A DNA stretch of 64,000 bases from Lenzites betulinus (lineage: Eukaryota > Basidiomycota > Agaricomycetes > Polyporales > Polyporaceae): NCBI GenBank assembly GCA_022264855.1, contig JABYQU010000012.1:248001-312000 (forward strand), read 5' to 3'. The stretch's first letter is position 1, and the number at the start of each line of letters is the position of its first letter. Below, in pieces: positions 7,077 through 38,971 of this stretch. The notes beneath the pieces are model-generated. The model made no database searches, was not told where the DNA came from, and saw only the letters and a list, made by a program, of their open reading frames with translations. The position numbers and the translations under genes were made by a program.

Positions 7077-7129
7077 GAACGTGGTCCGAAGCGACGTCGA
7101 AACCACGCACGCAGGTCCGTGCTGTAATT

Positions 7130-10887: not shown

Positions 10888-10895
10888 ATCTCAAC

Positions 10896-11066
10896 ATGCT
10901 CGCACTCCTCGTACTCCTCTGTCTCTACATTCTCGCCCTCTTCGCCATCTCCCTCGCAGCCATCGCCTACATCCTGCGAGAGTTCTCTCAACAACTACTC
11001 GAGAGGACCCTCCTCTCCAGGGACTACCCCCCCAAGAAGGACGACTTCAACGCATGGGGAACATAG
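10896..11066 (+). CDS. Element B small hydrophobic protein 1 (56 aa)
   Basis: ATG lies 8 bases after the integrase stop. The first ~28 residues are an uninterrupted hydrophobic stretch (MLALLVLLCLYILALFAISL onward), followed by a Leu-Arg-rich amphipathic part (REFSQQLLERT) and a charged tail. This is a predicted single-pass membrane peptide. Its stop overlaps the ATG of the next small ORF (shared ATGGGGAACATAG, 11054-11066). The two peptides have similar layouts and may be duplicates. I know no named family, and function is not assigned. Confidence 0.5.
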   Translation: MLALLVLLCLYILALFAISLAAIAYILREFSQQLLERTLLSRDYPPKKDDFNAWGT

Positions 11067-11269
11067 TCGCCATCCTCATCACCACCTTCACCGCTTTCCT
11101 CTTCGCTCTTGCCTTCCTCAGATACGTTTCTCAACTCTACTTCTCACTCCTCCAACACCTCCTCGACCACCGCGACCCACTCTCTCCCACCACCGTCGAA
11201 GACACTGCGACCAGCCATGGGGATGGAACTCCCATTCTCGCGCAATACCTGGGTCCCGACTCGGCCTAA
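11054..11269 (+). CDS. Element B small hydrophobic protein 2 (71 aa)
   Basis: N-terminal hydrophobic segment (VAILITTFTAFLFALAFL), then an amphipathic Leu/Tyr/Gln segment ending HLLDHRDP, then a polar tail. This layout parallels the 56-residue peptide upstream (LRYVSQ against LREFSQ). It overlaps the preceding ORF by 13 bases and the following zinc-knuckle ORF in another frame. A termination-reinitiation arrangement is possible but is inference. Confidence 0.45.
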   Translation: MGNIVAILITTFTAFLFALAFLRYVSQLYFSLLQHLLDHRDPLSPTTVEDTATSHGDGTPILAQYLGPDSA

Positions 11270-12188: not shown

Positions 12189-12227
12189 AGAAGTCGAGGG
12201 CGACTTCCTACCATAGAAAGGGGGTTA

Positions 12228-12592
12228 TGTTACAACCGTACGTGCTTCAGTGACGGTTGGTCACACGATTATGTCTGGGATCGGTCACGGACTCTGCCTC
12301 GTGGTTACCATGTGTTTTGGATACGTGTTTCGGTGCCTCATGGCTACGGTGTGTTTCTGCTACGCGTTTCAGTACCTTATGGCTACGGTGTGGTTACCTG
12401 CAGGCTGCGCCTCATGGTTACAGAGTGTCTCACATGTATATATACGAGTAGGAGAGCTGAGGAGAACCTCAGCTCGACCTGGTTATCTATCGCCCTTCGA
12501 ACCTCCCCTCTGAACCTCGATCCCTCTGTGTGAAGCGAATAAGTCCCTGTGCTGAAAGCCTAACAAGCGAACCACTGGGCATCGTCTTAACA
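12228..12592 (+). repeat. Element B 3' LTR (365 bp)
   Basis: Matches 5253-5617 with no difference noticed. It is preceded by a purine-rich primer tract and followed by ATAGG (12593-12597), the second copy of the target duplication. Confidence 0.95.
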
Positions 12593-12597
12593 ATAGG

Positions 12598-14122
12598 ACA
12601 CCTGGGAACCAACAAAACCTTGTCATATATTCGACACTGGTTCTGGTGGCAGCGAATGACACGAGACGTCGAGTGATTCTGTAGTTCGTGCGGAGTCTGT
12701 CAGACCACAAAAGTGTCCAATCAGAAGCAGGCCGGCTTATTTCACAACTTGCCAATACCGACCCGGCCCTGGCAATCCATCTCTATGGATTTCGTTGGCC
12801 CATTTCCAAACTGTGACGGACTAGATTACCTATGGATCATAGTGTGCCGATTGTCTGGTATGACTCACCTGGTACCGGTGGTCACCACCATTCGTGCATC
12901 AGGACTAGCCTGGCTGTTCCTGAAAGATGTGGTTAGGCTACACGGCATCCCTGACTCCATCGTATCGGATAGGGACCCGAAGTTCACCTCCAAGTTCTGG
13001 AGAGAACTCCACCGACTCATGGGCGTAAAGCTTCTGATGTCCACCGCATTTCACCCGCAAACTGACGGGACGTCCGAACGAATGGTACGCACCGTATCGC
13101 AAATATTACGGTCATCCGTCCGACCCGACCAAACGGATTGGGCACGGCGTATCCCGATGGTGGAATTCGCTATCAATTCAAGCGTCAACGCAAGTACGGG
13201 CTACTCGCCGTTCGAATTGAACTCAGGATATATGCCTACGATGATGCGAGAACTGGCGCGCGAACCCGCACTACCCGGGGTGAAGGACTTCGCTGAACGC
13301 GCGATATCGCACCTGCGGGACGCTCATGACCATGTGATTGCTAGCAGGGTAAGCCAGACTCACTTCGCAAACCGAAACCGCCGCGAAGAAGACGACCCCG
13401 AGACCCCGGCGTTTGCGGTGGGGAAACAAGCCTACCTATCGACGGATAACATCAGCATCCCCAAAGGGAGAGCAAGGAAGCTCGTGCCGAAGTTCATCGG
13501 CCCGTACAAAATCACTCACGCTGATCCGAGCTCGTCGACGTACACGCTGGAGCTACCGCCTGACCTCCGAACCCGAGGAATTCATCCTACGTTTCACGTG
13601 TCCAGGCTACGTCGGCACGAGCCCAACGATGACGTACTATTCCCAAGCCGTGAGGTGGGAACATTCTATGACTTCGGGACGGACCCCGACCGAGAATATA
13701 TTGTCGACTCCATTGTAGCCCATGAATGGGCGGGCAACGTAGTAAGATTCCTAGTACAATGGGAGGACGGTGACAATACATGGGAGAACTGGGCAACCGT
13801 CAAAGACTTACAAGCAGTGGACGAATATTTCGACTTGCAAGGCGTGCGCGACTGGAGAGAACTACCGAAGTCGGCCCGCAGTAATCGACGGACAGTGTCG
13901 GCACGCACCGAAGCACCGTTGATGACAGACCAACGTACTGATAATCACCGTGCACCGCAAATACCGCGACCGCCGCCGTTGCAGCAGTCCGAGCAAGCAG
14001 CACACGACCGGTCACACGGTCAGCTGACCGCGACTGACCAGGCAACTCCGAATTCCCCGGAGGATATGGGCCGAGGCCGCCGTAACAAGCGCCCTTCCTG
14101 GAAACGGAAGGAAGGCGCTTAG
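12598..14122 (+). pseudogene. int: Element A Pol, 3' part: integrase and chromodomain
   Basis: Continues the element A pol frame after the element B insertion. It resumes with the GHLGTN half of the HHCC finger. An in-frame TGA at 12674-12676 lies where element C has a Lys codon, between the WFWW motif and the CxxC pair, so integrase cannot be made in full. Beyond it are SMDFVGPFP, SDRDPKFTS and TDGTSERMVR, giving the DDE triad. KGRARKLVPKFIGPY and HPTFHVSRL follow, then a chromodomain-like segment (YIVDSIVAHEW, VRFLVQWEDGDNTWE). CGA or AGA to TGA would explain the stop. No ATG start is required; GTG 12713 is just where an ORF caller would begin. Confidence 0.88.
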
Positions 14123-14257
14123 CAGATCGGACATTCAACCTAATCCGACTGACTGTCTAGGACGACCGATTAGGAACGGTGATCATTGGAACAGCGCCCA
14201 TTACCTATCACAGAAAAAACATCACAGCTACGCACTCGGATCTGCCCATCTGCTTCT

Positions 14258-16063
14258 ATGTACCACTCTGGCGGCCCCATGCGCCCTGTTTCTACACCGC
14301 CGACCACCCGCCGCCGGGAAGGCACCATCAACGATGGCTCCGACTACGGCAACCACGCCTACGAATACCTACTGGAGCCGGCGAACCGGAAACGCAGCCG
14401 CTCCCGCGGCCGAAGCCTGTCCCGCGACCCGCCCATGGCGCCCAACTGGACGCACGGCGGGCATGCCGGGCATGACCACCATAAACGCCGACACACGAGT
14501 CCGACCCAAGCGCCGCGCGGACGCGGGCCGCGCATGACGGAGTCGCGCCGGCTCGACGATCAATTCTCCGCGGCTAAGGACACTGCATACAAGCGCGGCT
14601 GGAGCGCGTGCTTCGACAAGTACAAGAAAACGATAAACGACGCAGAGACGAATCAAGAGGAGGTCTACCGACTCCGCGAGCAGATCCGGTCAGTACACGG
14701 CGAGTTACAAGAGGCGCGAGCAGCGATACAGCATGAAGAACGCCGCACACGCGAAGCTGAACGTGTCGCGAACGCCGCCCAACTGCGTCTGAAAGCCCGC
14801 AAGACGCGCAGGATCCCGCATGCGAGCGCATACGATGCAGACATCGTTATGGGCGACGCCGCGCCCCCGGGACGCACCTCCCGAGACTCCGCACATGCAC
14901 CACCCTATTCCCAAGCTAAGGGCTATTACAACCCCCAACCTGGAATTGCGGAAGTGGCGGCGCATACGTACACCGACCCCGACAGAACGAAACATGCTCT
15001 TACTCGTGATTCGACTGCAGCGTCGAATCAGAAAGGGGAGGAACCTGCGGATAACATGACGCGCGCGCCATCCAACGCCAACGTCAAGAAGATAACCCCG
15101 AACGCGTGGACGAAAGCCTACAAGCCGAAGGCCGTCCCAATCACCGACCAATTCGTCATGGTTCCTCGCTACGACCACGTACCAGAGAGCTTCGAAGAAC
15201 TCGAGCGCATCCATCGCAAAGCCCTCGCACCGCACGGCGCTATCGCGGTGTATCAACTTATCCAGTGGAAGCAGACCGCGATGGAGAAGAAGGGTTACGG
15301 ATTTGCGCTCGCCGCCCCGGATCGATGGCTGCAACAATGGGAGGTACCGCTATGGTTTGTCGACCAACACGACGAACTTCGCGGTTCTCTCGATTGCCAT
15401 GTCATGACGCCGCCAACATGGCACCACCCCCTCATCCATTGGTTCAGACACTACGACGCCAACAGAACGTCTATGCGCAAAGGGTTCCGGCGACACCCTG
15501 ATGGACGGCCGGACTTGCCGTCGATCGAGGGACTATACCTTGCGGCATTGCTCGCCTTAGACGAATTCAGCGAGCGCATCGGGCCCGACATGGCGGTCGT
15601 CAACACTCTCGCCGGCCTTCTCGTTAGCCCCGCCGCATACGAGGCCACGCTCGCTCGCCTACAACTGGAACCCGGCCTCGACTTGCACATCCTCCCATAC
15701 GATGGACCACGCCCTGCATCAGCCGACGCACTGTGCCGGCACCTCGCAATGTGTGGCCTGACGCCTTGGGACGTTCGCCAGTCCCTCAGCGAGTGGGCCG
15801 CCGCCTACCTGGCATCAAATGGGAAGTCCAATCGGACTTCCGTCGAGACACCAACGCCTTCCCCGGTCGTGACCAGCTCGCCGACGTCTGCCTCGACGCT
15901 GGACGTCAACACACCCGCTACGGAGCCCGCTAACATGAGCGCGTTGCAGGGAACTACGACTGTCGAGCCGTCCAACGTTCCGCTTCCCGATGGAGACGAC
16001 ATGGACCTCGACGAGATAGCGTCCCCCGGGGACGATGATAGTCACTCCGCCGTAAGTGCATGA
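14258..16063 (+). CDS. Element A env-position ORF (coiled coil plus globular C-terminal domain)
   Basis: Starts at ATG 14258, 136 bases after the integrase stop, and is intact at 601 residues. It has a basic Arg/Ser-rich N-terminus, then a heptad-like charged stretch (about residues 125-205, with REQIRSVHGELQEAR and HEERRTREAERV) predicted as coiled coil. A compact region of about 220 residues follows, rich in Trp, His and Leu (ALAPHGAIAVYQLIQWKQ, WHHPLIHWFRHY, LYLAALLALDEF), and then a Ser/Thr/Pro tail. No signal peptide or transmembrane segment is apparent, so it is unlike a classical Env. Its position and layout, coiled coil then globular domain, match the element C ORF at 24767-27134. Function is unknown. 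Confidence 0.65.
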   Translation: MYHSGGPMRPVSTPPTTRRREGTINDGSDYGNHAYEYLLEPANRKRSRSRGRSLSRDPPMAPNWTHGGHAGHDHHKRRHTSPTQAPRGRGPRMTESRRLDDQFSAAKDTAYKRGWSACFDKYKKTINDAETNQEEVYRLREQIRSVHGELQEARAAIQHEERRTREAERVANAAQLRLKARKTRRIPHASAYDADIVMGDAAPPGRTSRDSAHAPPYSQAKGYYNPQPGIAEVAAHTYTDPDRTKHALTRDSTAASNQKGEEPADNMTRAPSNANVKKITPNAWTKAYKPKAVPITDQFVMVPRYDHVPESFEELERIHRKALAPHGAIAVYQLIQWKQTAMEKKGYGFALAAPDRWLQQWEVPLWFVDQHDELRGSLDCHVMTPPTWHHPLIHWFRHYDANRTSMRKGFRRHPDGRPDLPSIEGLYLAALLALDEFSERIGPDMAVVNTLAGLLVSPAAYEATLARLQLEPGLDLHILPYDGPRPASADALCRHLAMCGLTPWDVRQSLSEWAAAYLASNGKSNRTSVETPTPSPVVTSSPTSASTLDVNTPATEPANMSALQGTTTVEPSNVPLPDGDDMDLDEIASPGDDDSHSAVSA

Positions 16064-16105
16064 ACCTGAATCCTCGTTTCCCACCTTCGTTCGTATAGCC
16101 ATTAT

Positions 16106-16272
16106 CAGGCGTTATAACCTGCAACTATACTTGTTACCGTTTTGTGAGGGTATAACAACCCATTCTCGTTAACCACCAGGGTATTACAACCCCCTCGACT
16201 ACGTCTTGTAAACTACCAGGGTATAACAACCCATGACTCCTGTTCCAATTACCATCAGGGCTATAACAACCC
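16106..16272 (+). repeat. Element A 3' untranslated iterons (GGGTATAACAACCC type)
   Basis: Four copies of AGGGTATAACAACCC or one-to-two-base variants begin at about 16147, 16178, 16218 and 16257. A looser copy (GGCGTTATAACCTGCAAC) lies at 16108-16125. Spacing is 32, 40 and 39 bases. Each unit is itself partly palindromic (GGGT...ACCC). They lie between the extra ORF and the polypurine tract. Confidence 0.6.
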
Positions 16273-16311
16273 AATTGTGCTATTGCTCGATTTACGGATC
16301 GCGTGTGCGAT

Positions 16312-16515
16312 CCAAGGGGGGAGGGTGTAAGAGGGTAGTTATTAAGCGCTCTACCTTATGTAATGTCCGGCGTCTGCCGGCCTGCAGCTTAGTAGAGGCC
16401 GCTCGTTACTCGAGCGACCTCACCTCTCTTCCTCACTTCTGTACTATTGCTTTAGCTTAGAGTTATTATACTCGGTTCTGAGCATCTCGGGCGTGACCTA
16501 GGGCGGTGACTTACA
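16312..16515 (+). repeat. Element A polypurine tract and 3' LTR (LTR 16326-16515, 190 bp)
   Basis: CCAAGGGGGGAGGG at 16312-16325 is followed by TGTAAGAGGG, and the LTR ends GACTTACA at 16515. The inverted ends TGTAAG/CTTACA are the same as in element C (TGTAAG...CTTACA). The partner LTR is outside the window, so length and end are inferred from the ends and the tract. Bases 16516-16520 (GGTAA) would be the target duplication. Confidence 0.75.
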
Positions 16516-17090
16516 GGTAAACTCAGCGCCCAATGCCGATGACAGCGAGCTCGACGGTTGCTTGCAGCTGACGTGGCCGCTACATAGGGACGACGTTGAG
16601 TGAATGGCTGATACTATACATACTAGACATATTTGGGTCGCCGTATTGACGTTTTTATGGAGCTTGGCACATGGATTTGCGGATGAAGACAGCGAAGGGA
16701 GGGTCGGCCCAGAGGGCAAGTGGTGGAAGACATGAGAGAGGGAGCTGACGTGGCCCTCGTCAGAAACGACAAGTACGAGACGCCCGTTCACGTGAACGGC
16801 ATCATCGGCCGACGGCACGGCGGCACTGATGCTCAGCGCCATCGTGGGAGCTAACTTCCTGAAGCATTTGCAGTCTGGGTTGGGGTCACGCAAGCGCCCC
16901 CAGCAACGAGCCCCTGGGCGGCATCATCTTAAGGGCAACACAGATCAATCTCAAAGTATCTTAAGAGACATTTCCCTGAAGAGCATCTCACTTACACCTT
17001 AACCGCATCACAAGATTTCCATCTCAAATTATTTCAAGAGTGCTCTCCCTTAAGAATGTTTAAAAATGCCCGTTGGCCGTGTACACAGGC
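16516..17090. repeat. Dispersed repeat, copy 1
   Basis: The segment from about 16663 to 17083 matches 28681-29106 with few differences. An upstream block (TTGCTTGCAGCTGA...) at about 16556-16650 matches 28137-28210 more weakly. Copy 2 has roughly 450 extra bases between the two blocks. A minus-strand reading frame of about 80 codons and a plus-strand one of about 70 are preserved in both copies, but neither resembles a family I know. The segment ends in the shared GCCCGTTGGCCGTGTACA and then diverges. Confidence 0.7.
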
Positions 17091-17426
17091 AGAGCAAAAT
17101 CTATGAATCTTCTTAAGAGATCAGACCTTTGAGATACCCCCCAGGAATTTTTAAGACGATCACGTTTGGAGGCCCTGGAGACGATCTTAAGAGCGGCCGA
17201 TTCTTAAGACCACCTTAAGGTCGGATCACGAGATCTCGCTATATTTGGCCGAAGCAACGGCCGGGGTTGGGCCAGATTGAGCAGGTTCCGGGCACTCCCG
17301 ATGCCTTTTGTGGTCATTTCCATCCATTGCAGCGCCAGCCGGAATATACTGGACCGGGCAACAAACATATATATTATCTGAACTAATCTACGATACATGA
17401 CTTGTACAAAGCGCTTTCTATTGACG
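17091..17426. other. Non-coding stretch with clustered CTTAAG motifs
   Basis: No gene recognised. Counting from the end of the repeat, CTTAAG occurs at 16928, 16960, 17049, 17112, 17186, 17203 and 17214. The last five bases (TGACG, 17422-17426) are the left target duplication of element C. Confidence 0.5.
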
Positions 17427-17722
17427 TGTAAGGAGCGCGTATCCTGCGCTCCTACAGGATCCTTTAGTTGTGCGAAACGCACAACTAAAATATACGGAAT
17501 CGGACCATACGTACACGCGCGCATATTAGCGCGCGGATAACCGCATGTATGTACTGCCACCGCGTACGGTGTCCCGAGTATTCGGAACTCGGGCGCCTGG
17601 TGGAGGGTAAGTCCTTACTACCCTCCACCATCCCTACGAGTACGCCGAGCCCAAATACGAGCCCGGACCAGAGTACCCAAGGGATAGGAGCCCAGTAAGG
17701 CACCTACCCCGTCATTCTTACA
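17427..17722 (+). repeat. Element C 5' LTR (296 bp), hairpin-rich
   Basis: Begins TGTAAGGAGCG and ends CATTCTTACA. It contains at least four perfect inverted repeats: GGAGCGC/GCGCTCC, TTTAGTTGTGCG/CGCACAACTAAA with an AAA loop (17463-17489), CCCGAGT/ACTCGGG, and GGTGGAGGGTA/TACCCTCCACC (17599-17629). Confidence 0.95.
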
Positions 17723-17827
17723 CTTTTTTACTCTCCGTGATACTTACACGCCCATATTTGGGGCTCGACGTTACCACGTCATCAATCATCAACAACATCT
17801 GCCATAAACAACTCGACATCCTTCCAA

Positions 17828-20800
17828 ATGGAAGAATCCGCGCCAGGTTCCGGAAGCAAGCGGCCGAGTAGGCCTAATTCCCCCCCGCGAGCTTCTTCCC
17901 TCCCGCCACGCACTGATATCGGTGCTGGCGTGCCACGTCGCAACACCCCCCCCGTGCCAGTGTACTCACACCCGCATGCGGGCGCGCGACGGACTCGGAA
18001 CGTAACTTCGCGTTCCGAGAATGTAAACGTGCCGGTCGAGACGACCGTACGCCCCGCAGCGAACGTTTCTCGTGCTCCGTCAAGAGCTCACTCGCATACG
18101 AGTGTTATGCCCCCTCCAGCGACTCGGACAGGCCCGCCGTCTATGCGCGCGGATTCCCCGTCGTTGGAATACGTCAGCCAACCACGTAGTATCGTGGTTG
18201 GCTCAGTACGAGGCCCGGAATCGCCGCGGCCAGCGGCGAGTCAATTGCCGAGGTCAGCAAGTAGGAGTTCCCAGCTGTCGCTAGACTCGAAAGGTCTAGC
18301 GAAGGTCAGCAAACGGTGGCAAGGCGTTCGCGACCGACATCGTCGCGACTCCCTTGCCCCATCAACCTCGCTCGAGCTGCTCAGCGCACTGCAGCGGTCT
18401 GCAACCCGGTTCCGCGAATTACGGAACCAGATATTGGACGCAGAAGACGAGCTGGCTGGCCACATTACAGGCCTGACCATATTACATGGATCCGACGGGC
18501 AAGGACCGAATAGGTCCGAAATGGACAGCGATGTCGAGCTGCCAGCAGGTGAAGCTGCTGGCGACGAACACGAGGTCGAAGACGAGCTACTCGGATACGA
18601 GTCAGCCCCAGATCTCGAGGCGGAAATGGACGAACAGCGTCGCTGGGAAGCCAGCCGACGCGAACGACTGAAGAAGGCTGGACTCAGTGAATCCGACATA
18701 GAACGTAGACGTTCGCAGCCGGCGTTTGAGTCGACACCGAGACCTATCGGTCAAGGCGGAGCATCGAATGCGATGCCTCGCAGGAACGTAGTGTTCGACC
18801 CGGAGGAACCGCGTTACGGTTCCATATCCAGGACGAACGCCTGGCCCGACGCGGCCGCGCCTCTTACCAGAGGCCTGAATGCCGCGGGAGTTACGGGCCC
18901 TACGCTTCCTCCTGCAATGCCAGGACTACGACCTCGTCGGTCGATGGCCCCTTCAGCCATGGGCGGGATGCACTACGCCCGCCCCGATAATGAGCGCGAT
19001 GCCAACACGGCACATGATGTACCCGAGTTGGTGTATACGGGTCCCAGTCCTATCGCGCGAGATAGTTTTGGCGTCCAGCGATTGCTGGACATGATTGAGG
19101 AGATGGTAAGCGAGGAGGCTACCTCTCCTCCCCCAGCCTATCTCAAGATGTCCAAGTTGCCGCCGCCGAAATCGTACGACGGCAAAGACAATCTGGACGA
19201 GTTCGAGCTGTGGCTCCGCGGGCTACTGGAGTATTTCCATACTCTCCGCATCACCGGAGACAGTATGGATGCAGACAGGTTACGTCTGCTCAGCTCGAGT
19301 CTCACGGACGAGGCGGCGCTGTGGTTTTACAACACGGTGCAGTCCACTTCTCGCGAGAAGAGAAACTGGCTCTTCTCCGAGGCCGTAATCGGGCTGTTCC
19401 GCCGGTTTATCCATCGGGATAATTACCTCTACGCGGCCCAGCAATTTGAACGTCTGAAATACGACGCTAGCAAGGGAGGAGTAGCCGCTCTGTATGAACG
19501 GCTACTATACATATCCGACAGGATGTGGGAGCGCCCTTCACGATACCAGATGAGGACCAAGTTCCTTGACGCATTGCCCGAGAGTTTCGAGCATGTGATA
19601 GCGGTAGTTAACGGCTTATCCGTTAAATACAATACCTTGACCGACCTGTACCATGCTGCTCTGGATATCGAGCAGAATACGCGCGCTATGCAGATGCGCC
19701 GGCGTGCCCGTGAAGGCCATAATACGGTCGCTTCAACTACGGTGACGCGCCCTACGAAGGACCTCTCCACTCGGAGGAAGCAAACTGCTCCTCCGAGTAA
19801 ACCGACGCAACCTACGTCGGTCTCACGGCCTGCGCACTACGCGGCTAAGCCTGCCGAACAAGGACGGCCTCGCACCGGAGGTCCGTCTGGGGACAAGACA
19901 CGTAACGTGCCTCACCCGAACAATCGTCCCAACGGAAAGCAGGCCGCCACCAAAGCAGCGCAGACTTGCTATTCGTGTGGACAGATCGGACATTTCGCGT
20001 CCGATCCAGTCTGTCCGAATGCGGGCAAACGCGACCACTCCGGTCCTCGCATGTTTGCTCAACGAGTATTGGACGATACGTCCGACCATGAACAGGCCGC
20101 GCACGACGAGCAAGTCGGCGTGGCCGATGACCATGTACCCGAACCAGAGGAGGATGAAGCTCTGGTAGAGGACGAACCCGACCTGCAAGTCGTAGGGGAT
20201 TACCCTCAGTCAGAATATGGCTGGGGAGGATCTCAGTATGAATCAGAGCACGAAGAAGTGTTCGACACCAATGATCACTACGATCAATTGGAGTTCGCAG
20301 GAATGCGCATAGAACCTTTGGCCGATGACGTATCGGATACGATACACATCCACAGCATGGCAGTAGGGCAAGACCGCGCTGCGAGACATGCGTGGATGTA
20401 TGACGCCAAAGTACGGCGCATCGAGGACCCGCAGGCACAACCAGCACGTACGCTGGATACGCAACGCACGTTATGTGCCGAGCTCCCGATCAACGGAGTC
20501 AAGGGCTTAGTGCTCTTTGACTCCGGATGCACCACGGACTCTATCACTCCGGAGTTCGCATATTTGTGCAAGGCAAGTCGTATCGACTTGAAGGAGCCAA
20601 TGGGCCTACAGTTGGGCACCAAAGGCAGCCGCACGAAGATAAACTTCGGGGCTCAAGCGTCAATAGCGCTCGGAAATATATGCGAAACGCATTATTTCGA
20701 CGTCGTGGATATTGACAAATACGATGCCATATTAGGCACCGTATTCTGTCGTCAATATGGCGTTGTTCTCGACTTCGCGAAGAACCGAGTAGTGATGAAT

Positions 20801-20863
20801 GGGAAGGAGATCCCGTTATTCATTGAAGGAGGCAAATACGCCAGCCAGCGTGCGGCGTATTAG
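17828..20863 (+). CDS. gag: Element C Gag-protease polyprotein
   Basis: ATG 17828 is the first AUG after the left LTR; 1011 residues. It has a Ser/Arg/Pro-rich N-terminus, a charged middle with EDELAGHI and DEQRRWEASRRERLKKA helices, and a Gag domain at about residues 430-610 (LPPPKSYDGKDNLDEFELWL, ALWFYN, FRRFIHR). A CCHC knuckle (CYSCGQIGHFASDPVC) lies near residue 717. An acidic linker follows, then a protease with LFDSGCTTDS near residue 900 and a DAILGTVF motif. The frame ends TAG 20861-20863, but the same frame is open onward into RT, as in element A. Confidence 0.9.
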   Translation: MEESAPGSGSKRPSRPNSPPRASSLPPRTDIGAGVPRRNTPPVPVYSHPHAGARRTRNVTSRSENVNVPVETTVRPAANVSRAPSRAHSHTSVMPPPATRTGPPSMRADSPSLEYVSQPRSIVVGSVRGPESPRPAASQLPRSASRSSQLSLDSKGLAKVSKRWQGVRDRHRRDSLAPSTSLELLSALQRSATRFRELRNQILDAEDELAGHITGLTILHGSDGQGPNRSEMDSDVELPAGEAAGDEHEVEDELLGYESAPDLEAEMDEQRRWEASRRERLKKAGLSESDIERRRSQPAFESTPRPIGQGGASNAMPRRNVVFDPEEPRYGSISRTNAWPDAAAPLTRGLNAAGVTGPTLPPAMPGLRPRRSMAPSAMGGMHYARPDNERDANTAHDVPELVYTGPSPIARDSFGVQRLLDMIEEMVSEEATSPPPAYLKMSKLPPPKSYDGKDNLDEFELWLRGLLEYFHTLRITGDSMDADRLRLLSSSLTDEAALWFYNTVQSTSREKRNWLFSEAVIGLFRRFIHRDNYLYAAQQFERLKYDASKGGVAALYERLLYISDRMWERPSRYQMRTKFLDALPESFEHVIAVVNGLSVKYNTLTDLYHAALDIEQNTRAMQMRRRAREGHNTVASTTVTRPTKDLSTRRKQTAPPSKPTQPTSVSRPAHYAAKPAEQGRPRTGGPSGDKTRNVPHPNNRPNGKQAATKAAQTCYSCGQIGHFASDPVCPNAGKRDHSGPRMFAQRVLDDTSDHEQAAHDEQVGVADDHVPEPEEDEALVEDEPDLQVVGDYPQSEYGWGGSQYESEHEEVFDTNDHYDQLEFAGMRIEPLADDVSDTIHIHSMAVGQDRAARHAWMYDAKVRRIEDPQAQPARTLDTQRTLCAELPINGVKGLVLFDSGCTTDSITPEFAYLCKASRIDLKEPMGLQLGTKGSRTKINFGAQASIALGNICETHYFDVVDIDKYDAILGTVFCRQYGVVLDFAKNRVVMNGKEIPLFIEGGKYASQRAAY

Positions 20864-23800
20864 CACAGCGTAGTGGAATCCACCAAGGTGGAGCCTCCCC
20901 AAACCCGCTACGCGATGACTAGTATGTCACCGGAAGGGGGAGGGAACGACGGCGAAACCGTCGTAACTCCGGTACGACATCAAGGTCGGGCAGCGAATGC
21001 CGCTGTTCCCGACATACGAGAACGTAGTGTACCTACCGTACATTCACAATCGAGACCGAAATTGGTCAACAACTATGGCAAAGACCCATTCGGCATCCAC
21101 GAGATGCTCGACCAGATAGCGAAAGAGCAGCTGGAGGATGAAATAATCCGACGGACACACGTCGGATTTGTCATAGATGAATCTGAAGAGGAGCTGAATA
21201 GACTCCGAGAACGGTGGTATAAGGAGACGGAGGACATAATGCGTCCTGCGCCTGAGACTCTACCACCGTATAGGGAGATCAATCATCGTATTCCGCTGAT
21301 TGATGAGAAAAAACTATACAAGTATCACCTACCGCGATGCGCGGAGGCGATCAAGGATGAGCTTCTTACGAAGATCAACCGGTATGTAAAGGCCGGCTGG
21401 TGGAGACCTGCTACGGTCACACAAGCAGCTCCGCTACTATGCGTAGCGAAGAAAAATGGCAAACTTCGAACTGTCATTGACGCAAGACAGCGCAATGACA
21501 ATACTGTACATGATCTTACGCCATTTCCGGATCAAGATCAGATCCGGATGGATGTGGCACGAGCGAAGTACCGCTCGAAGATCGACTTATCCGACGCGTA
21601 CGAGCAAATACGCATCGTAGCGGAGGATATCTGGAAAACCGCATTTTCCACTCCTTTCGGAACCTTCGTGAGCGAAGTAATGCAGCAGGGCGACACAAAT
21701 GCACCCTCTACATTCCAAAGGCTAATGACCACGATATTTCGTGAATTCATAGGCCGATTCGTTCACGTATACCTCGATGACATATTCGTCTTCTCGGATA
21801 CTATCGAAGACCACGAGAAACACCTGAAATTGGTGTTTAACGAGCTTCGAAAGGCACAACTATTCCTTAGCAAGTCGAAATGCGACTTGTATTCTAAGGA
21901 TCTGGATGTTTAGGTCATCGCATAGATGACCGCGGCTTGCACGCCGATACAGACAAGATGAGCCGTATCCGTAACTGGAGAACCCCGCAGTCTTACAATG
22001 AAGTCCAGCGGTTTCTGGGACTAGTGAATTACCTAGCCCATTTCATGCCAGATATATCGGCATACACATCTCCGCTTTCGGAGATGGTACACAACGATAG
22101 ACCTTTCGTATGGCGAGCCTTGCACGAGAAATGCTTCGAGTCCATTAAGACTCTAGCGTGCAAGGTCCCCATACTGAGACCAATAGACCCGCGCCGCAGT
22201 GAGCCGATATGGCTCATATGCGACGCCTCACTGTTTGGAATCGGGGCCTTATACGGCCAAGGCGAGGACTGGCAAACTTGCCGTCCCGCTGGGTTTCTAT
22301 CGAAGAAGTTCACCAGTGCTCAGCGTGCATATCACACGTACGAGCAAGAGACCCTTGCAATATGGAAGGACTCCTGAAATGGGAGGATAAACTTCTCGGC
22401 CGCAAGTTACGTATCGTAACTGACCATAAGGCCCTAGAATTTATGAAAGGAGTCAAGAATCCGAATCGTCGCCAGATTCGTTGGTACGAATACCTAGCCA
22501 GATTTGACTACGATATTACCTACGTACCTGGGCGACTCAACAAAGTCGCGGACTGTCTATCTCGATACTACGAGATGGACTCCTTGCATGACACGACGCC
22601 GGAATACGACGTCGTGAACGCTGACGCGCGATTAGATCCTGAGGGAGACGATCTACCTCAGAGTCGTCTGCTCGAGATACGAGCTGGACGAGTCATTCGG
22701 AAACCTGCTCGTTATCGTGACTCCGATGACGAGGCGCCAGTAGCACGCCCGAAGAACAAAGTCGTTCTCCCGGCAAAAGCGAAGCCGACAGCTACCACAC
22801 TGCCGGAGCCAGTGGAGGAGCGAGTCATAGAGAGCGCACGGTATGCCACACACGCTCCAGCGGCTGAGGTTACATCTGAACCAACGTCGCCTGACGACCC
22901 TACGCTAGCGATGTCGCTAGCGTCCGGCCCCTCACTGCGCACCCACTTCGAAAACGAAGATGGGTTCATGAAAGCCGTCCGTAACGGATACGTTACGGAC
23001 AAGACGTTTGGCAAAATTATGGCTAAACCATCTCAGTTTAGCGCATTCGCCACTCGCGATGGGTTGATTTTCTCCAAGAACCGCGAGGGCGAGGCTGTGT
23101 TATGCCTACCCCGGGTTCTATTGAACAAACGATCACTACACGAGATCGTGATTGATCGCGCGCACAGTACGTTGGGACATCTCGGTCCGCAACGCACATC
23201 TGAGTATCTCAGACGTTGGTTTTGGTGGCCGACTCTACGCAAAGACGTAGATAAATTTTGTATAACTTGCGGTACATGTCATACCGCAAAGTCGTCCACT
23301 CAACTACCTATGGGGCTACTACATAGCTTACCCCTGGCCCTGGCCCCATGGGCCTCGATCTCCATGGACTTTGTCGGTCCATTTCCATTGTCACACGGCT
23401 ACGACTACGTATGGGTAGTCGTATGCCGCATGACGTCTATGGTACACTTAATACCTGTACGAACGACCGACACGGCCGCGGAACTATCTCTCGTATATCT
23501 GCGAGAGGTAGTACGACTCCACGGGTTGCCTGAATCTATCGTATCTGATAGAGACAGCAAGTTCACGTCGAAGTTCTGGCGTGAGCTTCATAGACTCATG
23601 GGCGCGAAGCTGCTCATGTCCACTTCTTTCCACCCGCAAACGGATGGACTGAGTGAGCGAACTATTCGTTCAATTACTCAGATTCTCCGTGCTATAGTAT
23701 CGCCCAATCAACTCGATTGGTACGAGAAACTACCCTTGGCAGAATTCGCATTGAATTCTGCCGCCAGCTCTACTACTGGGTTTGCCCCGTTCGAATTGAA

Positions 23801-24452
23801 CTATGGGTATTTACCTCGGTCGATGAGTGGAATCAGAACGGAAACTCCGTTCGCGGGAGTACGCGAGTTCGCACAGCGAGCTCGTGCTAATCTTGAGATA
23901 GCGCACGATGCCATAATCGACGCTCGCGTGTCTCAAACCTACCATGCGAATAAGCATAGGCAGGAGGAACCTGAGTTCCAGATTGGAGACTTAGTCTATC
24001 TCTCGACTAAGAACCTAACCGTGCCCAAAGGTCGAGCACGCAAGCTCGTGCCTAAGTACATCGGGCCATACAAGATTTTGGAGTGCATACCTCGCACTTC
24101 CAACTATGTATTGGACCTACCCTCGGAATTACGAGAGCGGCGAATACATCCCAAATTCCATGTCTCCCTACTTAGGAGACATGAAGCCAACGACGATGCG
24201 GTATTCCCGCATCGCGATGCCCAAGCCTTCTACGACTTCGGGCTCAGCGACGACGCTGAATGGTTGGTCGACGAGATAGTCGGCCATGAGTGGCAAGGCG
24301 CCAAATGTCGGTTTCACGTACGGTGGACCCAGGGCGACCATACTTGGGAGCCGTATGAGAGCTGTAAGGATCTCGCAGCGTTGGACGAGTATTGCACGCT
24401 CATGGGAGTCAGCTCATGGCGAGCCTTACCCCGGAAACCAGCCGCACACTAA
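20864..24452 (+). pseudogene. pol: Element C Pol: RT, RNase H, integrase, chromodomain (two frameshifts)
   Basis: In frame with Gag after TAG 20861-20863, with the following codons CAC AGC GTA. RT with YLDD near 21770 is intact up to the TTT run at 21909-21911, where a one-base loss creates TAG. The second segment, 21914-22362, holds the end of RT and the RNase H start (ICDASLFGIG). A second one-base loss at about 22363 makes TGA 22375. The third segment runs to 24452: RNase H end (VTDHKALEF), HHCC finger (HSTLGHLG, CGTCHTAK), DDE (SMDFVGPFP, SDRDSKFTS, TDGLSERTIR) and chromodomain (WLVDEIVGHEW, FHVRWTQGDHTWEPY). Restoring one T in each run rejoins the frame, so decay is minimal, or these are sequencing errors. 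Confidence 0.9.
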
Positions 24453-24766
24453 TACGTGTGCGGTGGGGAGTAGCTACGCCGATACGGCGAGTGTAGCCAG
24501 TGCGGCGTCAAAGGAGAAAAGGACTTGTGCGTCCGGCGTTGAAGGCGCGAGCACAGCCACATGCTAGCAAGCGCTCGCACGCGGTCACATGTGCTACGCG
24601 CGACGCGTCGCGTAATTACAGCTCAGATTCGAGCTCAGCCAGCGCTTAGCGTGGCTCCGCGACCCTGCGACTGGCGAATTGCCAGCTCGCGCTCGCCTAA
24701 CTTCACACTCGTCTCTCTTGCTTTCACTACGATCTCTCACTCGCCCTCAACACTCGCACCACCGCC

Positions 24767-27134
24767 ATGAACCCCGACCAATCCCAGCCGCCTCACGCGC
24801 CCCTCAACGCACCCCCGAGCGCCACTACCGAAATGGTAGTGGATCGCCCAGCACCCCCCTCTACCGCCATGCCACCAAACGTGGCCTTCCCGGATCCTGC
24901 CGCCCCGCCGTGCATCAGCAAGTAGCTGGGTATCCTGCGCCGTATCCGGCCCAGTACCAGTACGGCGGTGCCCCAACGCAGACACCGCCTACGAATCAAT
25001 ATCCGCAGCCGGGATACGGCTACGCGTACCCGCCCGCGTACCCTCAAGCACATGGGGCGTCGGTCTCAGCGTTTGCTCCGCCCCAAATCAGGTCGCTCCC
25101 ATGGGCGTAATGCCAGGGATGCCGCCCATCATGCCACTGAGCATGAACCTGGCCTGGGGACCGGTAGCAGAGCATCCGCTCCTCGTCGCGCATACGACGG
25201 GCTGCGTGATCTGCGCCGAGTTCATCCGCCATCTTCGGGGCGCGCAGTCGGAGCCATCGCTGCGCGAAGCTCAAATGAGCGTGCAAGCTCAGCTTCAAGC
25301 CCGGTTCTGGCAGTACTTCGAGGAGCATAGTCGCTCCAAGGAGGGAGGGGACGCCGCGGAGAACGAGCGGCGTATAGCCGAACTGCAAGAGCAGTTGAAG
25401 GAGGCACGGCAGCTCGCAGATGAGCGTCGTGAGACGATGGAGCGGTACCGTCGCGAGCGCAACGACGAGCGCGAGCGGTACGACGATCTGCAAGACGAGA
25501 AGGATCGACTCCAGCAGCAGCTGGAGGATATGAAGAAACAACAGGAGTCTCGAGCAGAAACTGCTCGTTACCAACCTTACAGCCGTCCCAACGAGGACAG
25601 GACGGTGCGGCGCGGGGATAGGCGCGAGGACATGTCGTCCCGCTTTCCCCCGCCAATATCAGCAGGGGACGTTCGTGGATTTGACATGTTCCGACAAGGA
25701 TCGTCTACCACGACTCGGCCGACGCAGACGTCGCCCGAGACCCAAAGAATCGAGCCGCCGCGGGAAGAGCCGGCCCCGCACCCCATGGTCGACTACGACT
25801 TCTCGTCGGAAGACGAGGCTACGTTCGACGCCAAACGGGCGCGGCGTATTTCGAGTCGGCAAGTGATGCGGAACGCGCGTCGAGGAGTACCAGCTCCTCC
25901 ACGCCCGGGCACGATGACGTGGACAGGCACGACTGCCGCCTCTCATCAGTCGCTCATCCCCAACTGGCCCCACGACGAGTTAGCCGCACCGGCGAACTCG
26001 GACCCCAAGCTCACCAACCATTGGTACGACTTCGTGCCAATGACTCAAGAGGAGGCCCGGCAAATCTTGGATGCCTCGCACACTGACATGGGTCAGGCGC
26101 GGCATCGCATACAACATCTGCTGGCGCAGGTCAACGCCAACCCCGCACTGACCAGCGTGCGGGGATTACAAGTCTTGGTGAGCAGCTGGCGGAACCCCGA
26201 CCGAGCTGGTCCCTCGGGTGGCCCATCCAGTCGGACAGGTCCCACCGTAGACCAGCCCCACCCGGCTGCATATACGCCGCCGGGGTTAATCCCTACCAGC
26301 ACGGCGCATCTGCCGATGCCCACCACCCGCAACGACCGCCCGATTGCAGGACGGCCGTATCGCTCCAAGCAGCAGCCGCACGTGAAGCTCGCGCAGCCAC
26401 GGCTGGACTCCACCGCGAAGGAGCTTCGCGAGTGGATGAAGAACTACCCGTCGTCTCGTCCGTCGTGGATGACGGTCGCCCCCGACGGTCGGCCGCAACT
26501 GGTCCACGTCGAGTTCCACCAGATGGGTCGCCGCGCTTTGACGCGCCGTGTAACCCCGTCTGAACGCGGACGGTGGCTCTCGCTGACGAACGTATTGTTC
26601 TCAGTGCCGGGCCTGTACCGTCACATCATTCTGACGGGACAGTACCCTGTCAGCCCCGAGAGCACCACGCAGGCATATCCCGGCAGCTTCGCAGAGGACG
26701 CGCTGTCCCTGTTTCACGTCGCACTCTGGTACGCCCGACTAGGCGTCACCATCGAGTGGGCAGACGAGCACCGCGACGCGGCCGCGCGATCCCGCGCCTC
26801 TCGCGAAGGAATCACTCCCGGGGAACCTATCACGGCTCTCCCCGGCATACACTCTGTATCGGAGGTGGTCAATGTACCCCCTCCCCAATCCCTAAACATA
26901 GCGGCGACACCCACGTCGACCGCTACCAACGAGGCTCCGGCCGCTAACCCCGCTCCTCCCCCTCCAGCTCACGCGTCGAACGACAACATGGAGGTCGAGG
27001 AGGGCGAGGCTGCGCCCACCACCACGGCCCCGGTCACCGAAATGGGTGACGCAGGGGCTCGTCAAGAGACTCAAGGAGAGCCGGGAGGCGATGCTCCCCC
27101 TCCTTACGACGATGCTACGTCCATGGCGTCGTGA
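24767..27134 (+). pseudogene. Element C env-position ORF (coiled coil), frameshifted near N-terminus
   Basis: Best start is ATG 24767 in a ccgccATG context. The frame is lost at TAG 24923-24925 through an apparent missing C in CCGCC(C)GTG. It continues in the next frame as a Tyr/Pro/Gln-rich stretch (about 24912-25086) and shifts again at AAA 25085-25087. From there an uninterrupted frame runs to TGA 27132-27134 (677 codons from ATG 25101). The protein has a Pro/Tyr/Gln-rich head, a long predicted coiled coil (ERRIAELQEQLKEARQLADE, DEKDRLQQQLEDMKKQQE), an Arg/Ser linker, a compact C-terminal region (HVEFHQMGRRALTRRVTPSE, LFHVALWYARLGVTIEWADE) and a Pro/Ala tail. It shares layout and position with the element A ORF; detailed homology is uncertain. 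Confidence 0.65.
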
Positions 27135-27477
27135 ACCTATGTGGTTCACCGCCCATGATACTATCACCGCGCAGGTGCCTGCCCCACCTGCGTCGACTAC
27201 TATTGGCTAATCAACAATCATAACCCCACCGAAATTGGTGGACGAGTATATTATCGGGCATGCCGCCTCTTACCGTCAGCCTCGTCGAGCACGGTTCGTA
27301 CACCCAGACGCAGGGTCACCTATCGGTGACCCCTACCATGAACCGTCGGACGCCACGACGACTTCTGTGTATCATAGGCGTAATGGCCACTGCTATTTGT
27401 GGCCCTCAAAAAATATATACTATTTATATTCTTTACTATACATCTGTAGACCTGGGATCAGGTCTAGTGGGGGAGAG

Positions 27478-27773
27478 TGTAAGGAGCGCGTATCCTGCGC
27501 TCCTACAGGATCCTTTAGTTGTGCGAAACGCACAACTAAAATATACGGAATCGGACCATACGTACACGCGCGCATATTAGCACGCGGATAACCGCATGTA
27601 TGTACTGCCACCGCGTACGGTGTCCCGAGTATTCGGAACTCGGGCGCCTGGTGGAGGGTAAGTCCTTACTACCCTCCACCATCCCTACGAGTACGCCGAG
27701 CCCAAATACGAGCCCGGACCAGAGTACCCAAGGGATAGGAGCCCAGTAAGGCACCTACCCCGTCATTCTTACA
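27478..27773 (+). repeat. Element C 3' LTR (296 bp)
   Basis: Repeats 17427-17722 with one difference seen, and is followed by TGACG (27774-27778), matching the left flank. The purine tract lies directly upstream. Confidence 0.95.
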
Positions 27774-27778
27774 TGACG

Positions 27779-28109
27779 GGTGCAGACAGCGATTAACAGC
27801 GGGAATACTGGGGCCTTATCGATTACTCTGGGCTGCTCATGCACCCAGAGTGTGGGCCCGGTCTTGCTTACCTTGCGCACAGTCTCCTAATACTGTAGCT
27901 TGACATGAGCATGCCAGAAACTGTCTGACAAGAAAGCTAACACTTACCCAGCTGCGGTGGTGCGGGATGGCCCCCGCCGTTGAGCTGAGCCCGCGACCTT
28001 CAGCTTGCAGCGAGGAACTGCGTTGGTATTTGCTGTTATCTGTGAGTTCTATAGTTAGTGGAAAAGAATGGGCTTTATATTTGTCAATGACTTACGGATT
28101 CATAGTGGA
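27779..28109. other. Intergenic, no gene recognised
   Basis: Host or older repeat sequence to the right of element C. On the minus strand, a short open stretch ending in a GTAAGTG donor-like site (about 27950-28010) resembles an exon edge, but I could not connect it to anything. Confidence 0.4.
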
Positions 28110-29106
28110 AACGGTCGGTGTCCAATGAGCTCAACGATTGCTTGCAGCTGATGTGGCTGCTTCATGGGGACAACGTGAAGCAAATGGTAAATATCCCACA
28201 TACCAGACGTGTTTGAAGAACTCTGAACCTGGAAGGCTGTGAGCCGCACAAAGAGGAATCTTCAGTCTGTGAGCGAAAGACTGAAGAGCTATGGCAGAGA
28301 ATGTCCTCCTTATATACTACTGGAGGACTGCGATGAGTAAGCATAAAAGAGAAGCATGTGACGTCCAGAGGACGCTGAGTAAGTAGCCTATGCGATGAGT
28401 AAGACGATGAGCAAGACTAGGACGACATATCGCGCAAGAATGATGCCATATTCTAGAGACTTCCATAGGGATCTGGAATGTACTGGAGCAGCGTAGAACG
28501 CACCAGAATCATCAGTAAAGATGATGAGATGCCGTGTATAGTACAATGTCCATAACAGGTAAGTAAGAATGTCCATGCCGGCGTATTGTAGACGCACGGC
28601 CACACACGGCAACTCCCGGTCCGGCACAGCCGTAAACACGGAAGTTCAACAGTGTTTATGTAGCCATCTATCATGATTCTTGGATTTGGCGCACATATTT
28701 GCAAATAGGGACAGCAGAGGGAGGGTCGGCCCAGAGGGCAAGTGGTGGAAGACATGAGAGAGGGAGCTGACGTGGCCCTCGTCAGAAACGACAAGTACGA
28801 GACGCCCGTTCACGTGAACGGCATCATCGGCCGACGGCATGGCGGCGCTGATGCTCAGGATCATCGTGGGAGCTACCTTCCTGAAGCATTTGCGGTCTGG
28901 GTTGGGGTCATGCAAGCGCCCCCGGCAACAAGCCCCTGGGCGGCATCATCTTAAGGGCAACGCAGATCAATCTCAAAGTATCTTAAGAGAAATTTCCCTG
29001 AAGAGCATCTCGCTTACACCTTAACCGCATCACAAGATTTCCATCTCAAATTATTTCAAGAGCGCTCTCCCTTAAGAATGTTTAAAAAAGCCCGTTGGCC
29101 GTGTAC
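28110..29106. repeat. Dispersed repeat, copy 2 (longer)
   Basis: The right block, 28681-29106, closely matches 16663-17083. The left block, about 28121-28210, matches 16540-16640 at lower identity. Between them lie about 450 bases absent from copy 1. It retains three CTTAAG motifs. It ends at GCCGTGTACA and then diverges. The element class is not identifiable, as no terminal inverted repeats or target duplication were found. Confidence 0.65.
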
Positions 29107-29454
29107 AACCCGGAAGAAGGGCGCCACATTTAGATTACGTCAGCGACAAGTTTAATGATTAGCCGAGTTCGATAATGGGCGAGCCGCCGCTGTGGCCACC
29201 ACTTGCTCTTCTCGGGCTCCGATCTTCAAGTATCCACTGGCGAGGGTACGTACACTGACCTTGCGCGCGAGCGCATCGTATGATTTTTTTTTTTCAATTA
29301 AACCTTTTGGATACATTCGTCAGACATACAGATATTACACGCCAACAAAAGCTCAGGATGGATCCACGATCATACACGCCACAGGTGTTTGCAAGAGTAG
29401 GGAGTTTAAGGTTGGGGACGCAGCAAGAATATCCACATATGTGTACAATGCGGT
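29107..29454. other. Intergenic / 3' flank of the CigA-like gene
   Basis: No coding signal. Contains a T10 run near 29285. Probably the 3' untranslated region and terminator area of the minus-strand gene that ends at 29455. Confidence 0.4.
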
Positions 29455-31180
29455 TTACCAGAAGCGTGTACTGTCTGACGAAAAGCCGTTCGCCATGCGC
29501 ATCGTGACGATGTTCGCAGTCATCGTCGAGAACTGCACGAACCTCCATTAGCACAATCCTCCTCACTGCCAAAGTAAAAGGACTCACCCCGTTCCCAATG
29601 AAGACTTGCGCCCGCTGCCCGACCAGCATGTCTACCCCTTGCGCGACATACCGCTGCTCCCAGTCGAGCACAAGATCTCGACTTGTCGTAACGCCTTCAG
29701 GCCACTCCCCCTCCTTCAGCAGCGCCGCGCGCAGCTCCTCCACGAACTGTCTGTCTCCATTCGTCATGACATGCAGTCTCCGGACGCCCTCCCCCGCCTC
29801 ACTCCGTCTCACCTCCCCTATGCGGCGCACGATCTGCGCGACACTGGGGAAGCAATGCGGACGCGCGTGCGCCTGGTCCACCTCGACGTTTCCGGTGCGC
29901 GAGGGAATGTACTGGTCCTGCATAGTTGGGAATGCGTTAAACGCAGCATACGTCGCACCAATGGCGCCGAGCCACTCGCAGTGGTCCCCAAAGTCGCCGC
30001 GCCGCACATGCACTGCCATGAGACCGTCGATCTGGGAATAACGCTCTGCATTGGTGTGCGTCTGCGGGACGTGCGAGAGATACGACTCTGTGGAGGTCGC
30101 GGGGAGGAAGAGCGCGCGATTGGAGTCGAAGGCGAGCTCGACGAGCGCGGACCAGGCGAAGCGGGTGATGATGGGGGAGGTGGAGAATTCGGGCCAGATG
30201 TCGAGCATCGCGCCCGGGTCGCCGAATACGCTTGAGGCGGTTGTCAGTTCGTGTACATTCAAGTGGTGTCAGGAGATCCCACGCACTCAAAGTTGTAGAT
30301 CTGCCCCGACTCGATCGCGGTCTGCACACATGGATCGTCGACGCCGGCGAGCTTGTCCCGCCAGCCATCCGTAATTTCCTTGGCCGAGTTCTTGTAGTTT
30401 ATGATCTCGGAGATGTCCTCTCGTATGAAGGTCGTCTTCACTCGGCACATTGCTTCAAAGTAATCTCGGTGAACCGCTAGTGGGGTATCATCACCTGGAG
30501 GGAATGACCCGCCGACGATTTGACCTGCGACCGGGTCAAAGGCTATTCTAGCACAGCTTGAATAAAGACAGACCTCGTATGATGGCGGAGTACGGTATTA
30601 GGGAGGGTATTTTCTTCCCATTGTATTCAGAATACTGTGAACCGTCGGCGTTCCATGTGTAATTTGCAAAGACGAAGCTATAAGCAACATGTAAGCGATT
30701 AGGACTAAATCGTTGATGTTGCACATACGCTCTCCCAGATTTGTAGGCCATATACGCGTTCAGAAGAAGCTCTTGCATGGCATTTCCCCACCCACAATCT
30801 GCACGATCGGCCTGTAATCAGCACAACGGGATACAATGACAGCTTTCAGCCTGCGTACTGCGCGAATGGCCCGCGACGAAAAGGAACTTCTCATCCTTGC
30901 GCGCTTCAGTCTGTTCCCAGTGATGTTGTGGAAGGCTCAGCTCGGCCCTATGATAGTTTTCGTAGAGCGGTGGCAGAGACGTTGAGAGCGTCGGAACCAG
31001 ATCTCGATACGTATAACGGAAAGCAACGGGGGACTCCTCGCCCAAGTAGTAGATCCCCCCCGCAAGCAAGGACACACCAATGGCTAGGACAACCAGAGAA
31101 AGGTAGCGCCTGGCGATGTAGCGCAGGTAGTGCTGGGTCATGGGGGGCCGGGTCTTTTCATAGCGATAGGAGGGCAGCAT
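29455..31180 (-). CDS. CigA-like type II membrane protein (O-fucosyltransferase-like fold)
   Basis: Five exons by splice signals and phase: 31180-30859, 30798-30574, 30524-30287, 30230-29588, 29532-29455 (501 aa). Introns are 60, 49, 56 and 55 nt with GTAC, GTCT, GTGC and GTGA donors. A short cytosolic N-terminus is followed by one transmembrane anchor at about residues 27-46, so the bulk faces the Golgi or ER lumen. The family signature blocks are CGWGNAMQELLLNAY (exon 1/2 junction), SEYNGKKIPSLIP (exon 2), LDIWPEF and HVRRGDF..HC (residues 336-346, the donor-site Arg motif of the O-fucosyltransferase superfamily), and the C-terminal NGFSTMTANIVMLR. Mushroom genomes carry many such genes, often named CigA. 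A glycosyltransferase activity is inferred from the motif only. The last donor and acceptor were chosen to keep phase and to restore the conserved NGFS segment. Confidence 0.82.
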
Positions 31181-31812
31181 GGCGTGATGGTCAGGGATTC
31201 AGGAGGCGAGTTGGGGGTTGTCGACGACGACGAGACGTGCATATGAACGACAAGGTTCTGGCGACGCTCAGCATGCATCCCTACAGACGGTCGCTCGGAG
31301 GCGAACAAGGATGCCCCGCATACGCTCCCCGTGCGTGCTTCCGCTCACTCGTCCGAGCTTCCCGGAACGCTGTACCCGAGCAGCGTCCGAATAATGTGTG
31401 TTACTTCCTAATCTGCTGGGATGCGTCAGCCACTGGGCGTCGTAGCAAGGTGGCAGGAAATGCACTTGCCCTCGCTGAGAGCTTCTCTTCGCTTAACGGT
31501 CGTTCGGTAGAGACATCGAGCAGGGACACTCACCTCACGCTATTCCAACGACTGTGTCTGACACACCAGCTACGATCCTAACAGCAATGATACATTGGTT
31601 ATATCGTGAGATGATCATGAGCAGACATAATACAAAGCAAGTGGTATCCCGACGTACGGTCATCAAGGTCATGAGCTATAAGCCGTCACGGTCCATAAAT
31701 GGAGAGCACATCGTCCGCACACCACCCGCTGACCCCAGTCCGCCTCATCTCCATGTCGCCAACGTATCTCCGGTGGCACACGGGCACACCTCCAAGACTC
31801 TCCCAACCGCAC
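31181..31812. other. Intergenic region between CigA-like gene and RhoGEF
   Basis: About 630 bases holding the promoter of the CigA-like gene and the 3' end of the RhoGEF gene, both on the minus strand. No further coding signal recognised. ORFs here lack conserved motifs. Confidence 0.4.
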
Positions 31813-38922: not shown

Positions 38923-38971
38923 TGCGCCCCCCAGACTTGATACGTACCTGTTTCTGTTCGATCCGATACCA

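Follow-up and report, generated by a model that had tools for sequence, protein, structure and literature searches.

Element C, a Ty3-type LTR retrotransposon in the 37.4-Mb assembly of the fungus Lenzites betulinus (positions 17427-27773, 10,347 bases, of the 64,000-nucleotide stretch of DNA analysed here, hereafter the window), is filled from LTR to LTR with short perfect hairpins. Its predicted end-to-end folding falls within the range seen in RNA viruses with strongly folded genomes, a level that an LTR retrotransposon would not be expected to reach. Defining a perfect hairpin, unless other limits are given, as a stem of at least 7 bp with a loop of 2-12 nt, we found 62 in the element against 5.7 (sd 2.9) expected from 10 dinucleotide shuffles. 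The original prediction had described this saturation and quoted five hairpins, all of which lie where it had placed them, and the excess proved stronger than first reported. We consider it somewhat better than an even bet (rough probability 0.55) that the folded single-stranded genome of element C is maintained by selection, as genome-scale ordered RNA structure (GORS); that selection rather than mutation made the hairpins, that RNA is the relevant strand, and what the structure would be used for are parts of this reading that we infer from the pattern described below.

Architecture of element C

Consistently with a chromovirus-like Ty3-type element of the Metaviridae, element C, whose LTRs and ORFs lie on the forward strand, is flanked by a 5-bp target site duplication read from the sequence (TGACG; 17422-17426 and 27774-27778) and bounded by two LTRs of 296 bp with TG and CA ends. 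The 5' LTR (17427-17722) carries five hairpins with stems of 7-12 bp (16.9 per kb), and the 3' LTR (27478-27773) differs from it at a single position (17531 G, 27582 A), which lies within a stem. Directly 5' of the 3' LTR, a purine-rich stretch was read from the sequence (27466-27477), which we take to be the polypurine tract. The internal part holds a gag-protease ORF with a zinc knuckle and a retroviral aspartyl protease (17828-20863), a reverse transcriptase (RT) ORF (20873-21913), an ORF with part of the RNase H, the integrase and SH3_Tf2-1 (22209-24452), and an extra 3' ORF of 677 aa (25101-27134). Pfam matches followed the order zf-CCHC, RVP_2, RVT_1, RT_RNaseH, H2C2, rve and SH3_Tf2-1, that is the gag-PR-RT-RNase H-IN order of such elements, with rve scoring 32.0 bits against a cut-off of 32.6. 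A chromo-like stretch was seen by eye in the translation, without a Pfam chromo match; elsewhere in the window, Pfam chromo had one match in element A and one, slightly below the cut-off, in element B.

The extra 3' ORF matched no Pfam family at E<=0.001, and a search with its protein, in which 7990 candidates were scored, matched six proteins, three of them named Lenzites betulinus and one of these 99% identical. The window's copy of the element is young, with 10 private differences at 7489 sites readable in at least three other copies; its pol frame is broken downstream of the RT part, a region that stays open over a long frame in two or more of the other copies. Rfam gave no match at gathering scores in 16600-29000, and no relative of element C was found in the viral_contigs database.

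Perfect hairpins exceed chance, also with protein and codon usage kept constant

With one LTR counted, element C has 58 perfect hairpins, the longest with a stem of 12 bp. Stems of at least 9 bp numbered 14 against 0.3 in dinucleotide shuffles, and nine stems, both LTRs counted, reached 10 bp or more. By stem length from 4 to 9 bp (loops of 3-8 nt), the excess over chance was 38, 46, 27, 20, 13 and 6. The excess also held against synonymous-codon shuffles, 40 per ORF, that keep the protein and the codon usage: we counted 19 hairpins against 1.7 in gag-protease, 7 against 0.4 in RT and 12 against 1.3 in RNase H-integrase, with a weaker excess in the extra ORF, whose 6 hairpins against 2.5 are inside the range of the codon shuffles (maximum 7) at stem 7. 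The gag, RT and RNase H-integrase ORFs together contain 72 hairpins with stems of at least 6 bp, and in more than half of these (40) second codon positions pair with third ones. Together with the folding energies of the four ORFs given below, these counts bear out the earlier suggestion that codon choice is bent towards hairpins. Some stems do sit within conserved protein motifs: a hairpin with a stem of 8 bp and a loop of 7 nt (21526-21548) lies within the RT motif PDQDQIR, a motif that four family-2 relatives retain at the protein level while lacking the stem.

Two further hairpins could be followed across copies. The LTR hairpin at 17463-17489 (stem 12, loop 3) was compared with four diverged LTRs, three of which have a stem of 13 bp and one a stem of 10 bp, and an outer pair is swapped (U-A/A-U); the hairpin at 23738-23762 (stem 10, loop 5) has 11 bp with a loop of 3 in two copies. 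The swap is real but single, and covariation over the five LTR sequences stayed within shuffles, which counts against selection for structure.

Element A (taken as 5253-12527) and element E (taken as 38508-47952) were near chance, with 6 hairpins against 3.5 and 5 against 4.9 in dinucleotide shuffles, and five control ORFs from A, B and E had counts inside the codon-shuffle range. The shuffle comparison proposed with the original prediction therefore came out in its favour for C, A and E, while the claim that B, too, was unremarkable did not stand: the 3' part of B (12528-17400) is enriched, with 25 stems of at least 6 bp against 7.3 and 7 of at least 7 bp against 2.9. Since 27774-30000 is enriched as well (8 stems of at least 7 bp against 1.2), the hairpin excess has no sharp stop at the edges of C; in 30001-38500 and 47953-64000 hairpins were at or near chance. 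An artefact of chance, composition or codon usage is hardly tenable as the source of the excess in element C, being refuted by dinucleotide, block-wise and codon-preserving nulls and by the neighbouring elements used as controls.

Predicted folding reaches the level of structured RNA genomes

Folding was measured on one LTR plus the internal part, as the folding-energy difference (MFED) of 350-nt non-overlapping windows against 15 shuffles. The MFED of element C was 22.6% for the sense and 19.3% for the antisense strand (28 windows, sense range 5.7-39.7%), compared with -0.8% for A and 0.0% for E, and in 120-nt windows the mean z was -2.64 sense and -2.55 antisense; windowed folding, also suggested as a check, thus agreed with the hairpin counts. 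When codons were preserved, the folding gain was +18.1% in gag, +26.1% in RT, +25.6% in RNase H-integrase and +12.2% in the extra ORF, each beyond 12 of 12 shuffles. The same comparison gave -5.1% and -3.7% in the pol of A, and +4.7% and +7.2%, beyond 12 of 12 shuffles, in B, a second respect in which B departs from what had been claimed. Element C thus has the property that marks GORS, a folding energy well above that of order-randomised controls along the whole genome, with codons preserved too. As in GORS RNA viruses, the excess runs along the coding sequence; unlike them, C is a fungal LTR retrotransposon that replicates through DNA, and the comparison concerns folding energy.

The RNA phages MS2 and Qbeta (Fiersviridae), computed alike, reached 29.7% and 31.1%. 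They resemble C in their z values (about -2.6 to -2.7 for all three), in near strand symmetry and in an excess of perfect hairpins (stems of at least 7 bp, loops of 3-8 nt: MS2 7 against 0.8, Qbeta 13 against 0.8, C 47 against 3.2), whereas their MFED is higher and their perfect stems per kb are fewer. One reason to favour selection is that C matches strongly structured RNA genomes in the range of its folding energy. A second is that structure persists in windows without a perfect hairpin: the 100-nt windows of C without a perfect stem of at least 5 bp (21 of 200) had a z of -1.28 (sem 0.29), against +0.33 in A, +0.32 in E, -2.23 in MS2 and -1.83 in Qbeta. Counting against it, perfect hairpins in E. 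coli rRNA, a truly structured RNA, hardly exceed chance (2 against 1.2, stems of at least 7 bp), so that the perfect-hairpin pattern is no general mark of RNA structure. In a published survey, whose method differs in details from ours, coronaviruses reach at most 23.4%, with SARS-CoV-2 at about 15%, while human pegivirus has 12.5% and HCV 7.5-10.7% (PMC7642675). The same source describes several hundred stem-loops, mostly unbranched, with duplexes often interrupted so that pairing does not run beyond 14 consecutive pairs, and with pairings poorly conserved among relatives (PMC7642675).

No strand preference was seen in C (paired z difference -0.09, sem 0.16), which counts against selection for RNA structure; the corresponding differences were -0.61 (0.16) in rRNA, -0.39 (0.29) in MS2 and -0.23 (0.22) in Qbeta. 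Because sense and antisense fold about equally and G.U pairs are not clearly preferred, selection could have acted not on RNA but on the single-stranded DNA, or on the two strands alike, through cDNA folding or through binding by integrase or by a host factor. However, MS2 and Qbeta, which never pass through DNA, are near-symmetric too, so symmetry is no pointer to DNA; we regard this alternative as improbable. Loops were compared in base and dinucleotide content, and they may yet hold a binding motif. G.U-containing stems were not clearly more in excess than A.C-containing ones (ratios of 3.8 against 2.4 in one test, excesses of 17 against 15 and 21.5 against 41.9 in two others), a result that would count against selection for structure. 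The lack of a clear G.U preference was withdrawn as evidence against selection on RNA, because MS2 and Qbeta also show no clear preference and the test hence does not discriminate.

Family copies and their relatives

Each of the 26 loci of the family that were counted (L009-L023, L026, L034-L040, L048, L052 and L059, which overlap, have flanks and include the window's copy) showed the excess, with 2.6-6.6 hairpins per kb; some of these loci contain a hairpin-dense 2.5-kb insertion. This insertion, with long inverted ends, occurs in the same genome and is probably a DNA transposon.

Folding-energy differences were 1.1-12.7% in ten loci of relatives, whose RT is 59-72% identical (87% over part of it in the locus on C33), and 2.7-4.8% in three more distant elements, against 25.7% for element C in that comparison. 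A modest hairpin excess was present in some relatives and was greatest in C55 (stems of at least 6 bp, 19 against 5.2) and in C34, which is nearly a copy of it (17 against 4.4), with loops often of 4 nt and with no excess in the relatives C53, C81, C62 and C98. None of 12 stems of at least 6 bp in the RT region of element C was intact in six relatives, as judged by eye and with some stems in alignment gaps. In the seven outgroups examined, where 15-34 stems of C could be mapped, 30-45% of their pairs are Watson-Crick and the overall level of structure is lower (1-13%). Amino-acid identity at stem codons was below that of the rest against four outgroups and above it against two (six compared). 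The strong hairpin form belongs to one lineage inside a mildly structured clade. A strongly structured lineage beside weakly structured relatives in one genome is a natural experiment, in which copy number, small RNAs and packaging could be compared between families with and without the structure.

Selection or template switching

The original prediction had offered two readings, selection for a structured RNA and template switching by the reverse transcriptase, of which the first is now better supported. Under the second, RT or host repair would switch template within near-palindromes and copy one arm onto the other, leaving perfect hairpins as a mutational signature, from which purifying selection on the protein would spare the synonymous ones. 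Such correction of quasi-palindromes is documented in yeast, coding DNA included, and would give perfect short hairpins with short loops, as in C (PMC8604942, PMC3820800). In agreement with it, the perfect class was far more enriched (99 against 7.1) than the one-mismatch classes (ratios 1.1-3.8, stems of 7), pairing is near strand-symmetric, and the hairpin-dense insertion, probably a DNA transposon, lies in the same genome. We looked for the marks of this process and, with limited power, did not see them: among 523 exact occurrences of hairpins, counted over overlapping loci that include the window's own, the loop was unchanged in 522, the sole inverted case (L048) lying by its coordinates in a piece of an oppositely oriented copy, and the outgroup alignments gave neither a consistently changed arm (six outgroups) nor a loop-first gradient of pairing (seven outgroups). 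The missing inversions are weak evidence, because in the yeast study no arm of 9 bp or less had an inverted loop (PMC8604942), and few arms in C exceed that length. Intact intermediates, at a divergence suited to seeing imperfect repeats become perfect in a single multi-base event, did not occur among the copies, and the classification covered single-site differences.

The loops themselves fit this process less well. Loop sizes in C peak at 3-8 nt, with no clear enrichment at 0-2 nt and an excess that fades as loops lengthen. Of 84 hairpins, 73 close with a G-C pair, against a chance share of 0.632 (p 2e-6), and loop A+T is 0.606 against 0.450 by chance; within coding sequence, loops are 58% A+T (stems of at least 7 bp) against 48% (chance stems of at least 6 bp in codon shuffles). 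Quasi-palindrome correction alone leaves unexplained both this bias and the structure of the hairpin-free windows, whereas G-C closing pairs with A/T-rich loops look tuned for folding and so favour selection. Stem G+C, which is not raised (0.603 against 0.641 by chance), counts against selection for structure. On balance we hold template switching to be rather less likely than selection; if RT mutation did make the hairpins, they would stand out as a remarkable imprint of an error process peculiar to that enzyme.

Sites polymorphic between lineages hit stems less often than random transitions (11 of 99 against 19.5%, p 0.019), and post-insertion differences hit them near the random rate (21 of 119; 28 of 182 in a diverged copy), in a test that is biased by the definition of stems on the window's copy. 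The direct contrast between the two was not significant (Fisher 0.12 and 0.14), which counts against selection. The diverged copy C76 has 9 stems of its own against 7 lost; we rejected these gains as a sign of independent upkeep, since random transitions gain stems at a similar rate and neutral decay therefore suffices.

Possible use of the structure

If selection maintains the folded genome, codon choice would let the proteins of element C be encoded while its single-stranded copy folds end to end. Shielding is the use we judge most likely: short local stems, the perfect ones up to 12 bp, would fold fast without presenting Dicer with a long perfect duplex, and folded sense RNA would be kept from annealing with antisense transcripts or small-RNA guides. 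In RNA viruses, genome-wide structure has been associated with persistence and escape from innate recognition (PMC7642675, PMC3950689), and if the shield reading is true, genome-scale ordered RNA structure extends from RNA viruses to a transposon. A second possible use is compaction for packaging by Gag via many dispersed hairpins. In MS2, the coat protein is described as contacting many dispersed RNA sites (PMC4751978); the likeness of C to MS2 lies in predicted folding.

The genomic RNAs of yeast Ty3 and Ty1, like that of element C, belong to LTR retrotransposons and have dispersed structured regions; for Ty3, the source describes a core, some 19% of the sequence, that is well folded, and as the string 'shuffl' is absent from its text, no excess over shuffles is stated there in that word (PMC11381356). 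In another source, the passage on retrotransposons concerns Ty1 dimerisation (PMC9784701), and miRNA-like structure has been reported for maize transposons with a measure other than ours (PMC10760457). Among the matches listed, covered in part through titles and the openings of abstracts, we did not find a genome-wide structure excess of this kind described for LTR retrotransposons.

We therefore propose, tentatively and at less than even odds, that element C represents an LTR retrotransposon lineage with an RNA-phage-like genome, in which hairpins from LTR to LTR, accommodated by codon choice, act as a shield against RNA silencing. The host genome encodes Piwi, RdRP and Dicer-dimer domains, so that there is a silencing machinery which C might evade.

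Hairpins in element C and its neighbours

The two LTRs of element C, the hairpin-rich Ty3-type LTR retrotransposon at window 17427–27773, differ only by a G/A substitution (17531 and 27582, respectively), and since this position falls within a 7-bp stem, the 3' LTR lacks the corresponding hairpin, a loss that presumably dates from after insertion. In the stretch directly following the element (27774–30000), which includes an LTR of another family (28686–28985), hairpins with stems of at least 7 bp were enriched, with 8 observed against 1.2 in shuffled sequence.

The extra 3' ORF of element C (25101–27134) has counterparts with 41–46% identity in several relatives (contigs C90, C100, C30, C53, C81 and C33); searches including Pfam matched it to no known family.

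Element E, encoding a Ty3-type polyprotein in one ORF of 2434 aa (40260–47561, minus strand), showed no hairpin excess and provides a handy contrast to element C within a single window. Element B comprises gag (103–3291), pol (starting at 3400), integrase (starting at 12713) and a further ORF (14186–16063), and, at window positions 1–17000, appears to be split by element A (5253–12527). The RT of element B is 61% identical to that of element C, and the folding energy of element B, compared with codon-preserving shuffles, indicated mild structure.

Hairpins in copies elsewhere in the assembly

Copies of the element C family on contigs C19 and C76 contain a 2.5-kb insertion (L017:2676–4175, L018:1–1500 and L023:1–1500) with inverted ends of ~880 bp, judged by eye to be putatively Mutator-like; a related stretch is present in C33 (L058:2081–3591). 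Hairpins were dense in this insertion too (8 vs 0.67 in shuffled sequence per 1.5 kb, in L017), and its diverged copies have stems of up to 17 bp in common.

One hairpin of element C (window 26141) has a counterpart with longer arms in a diverged, dead old copy on C17 (L064:5012); these longer arms consist of runs of C and G, and the length difference is coordinated across both arms.
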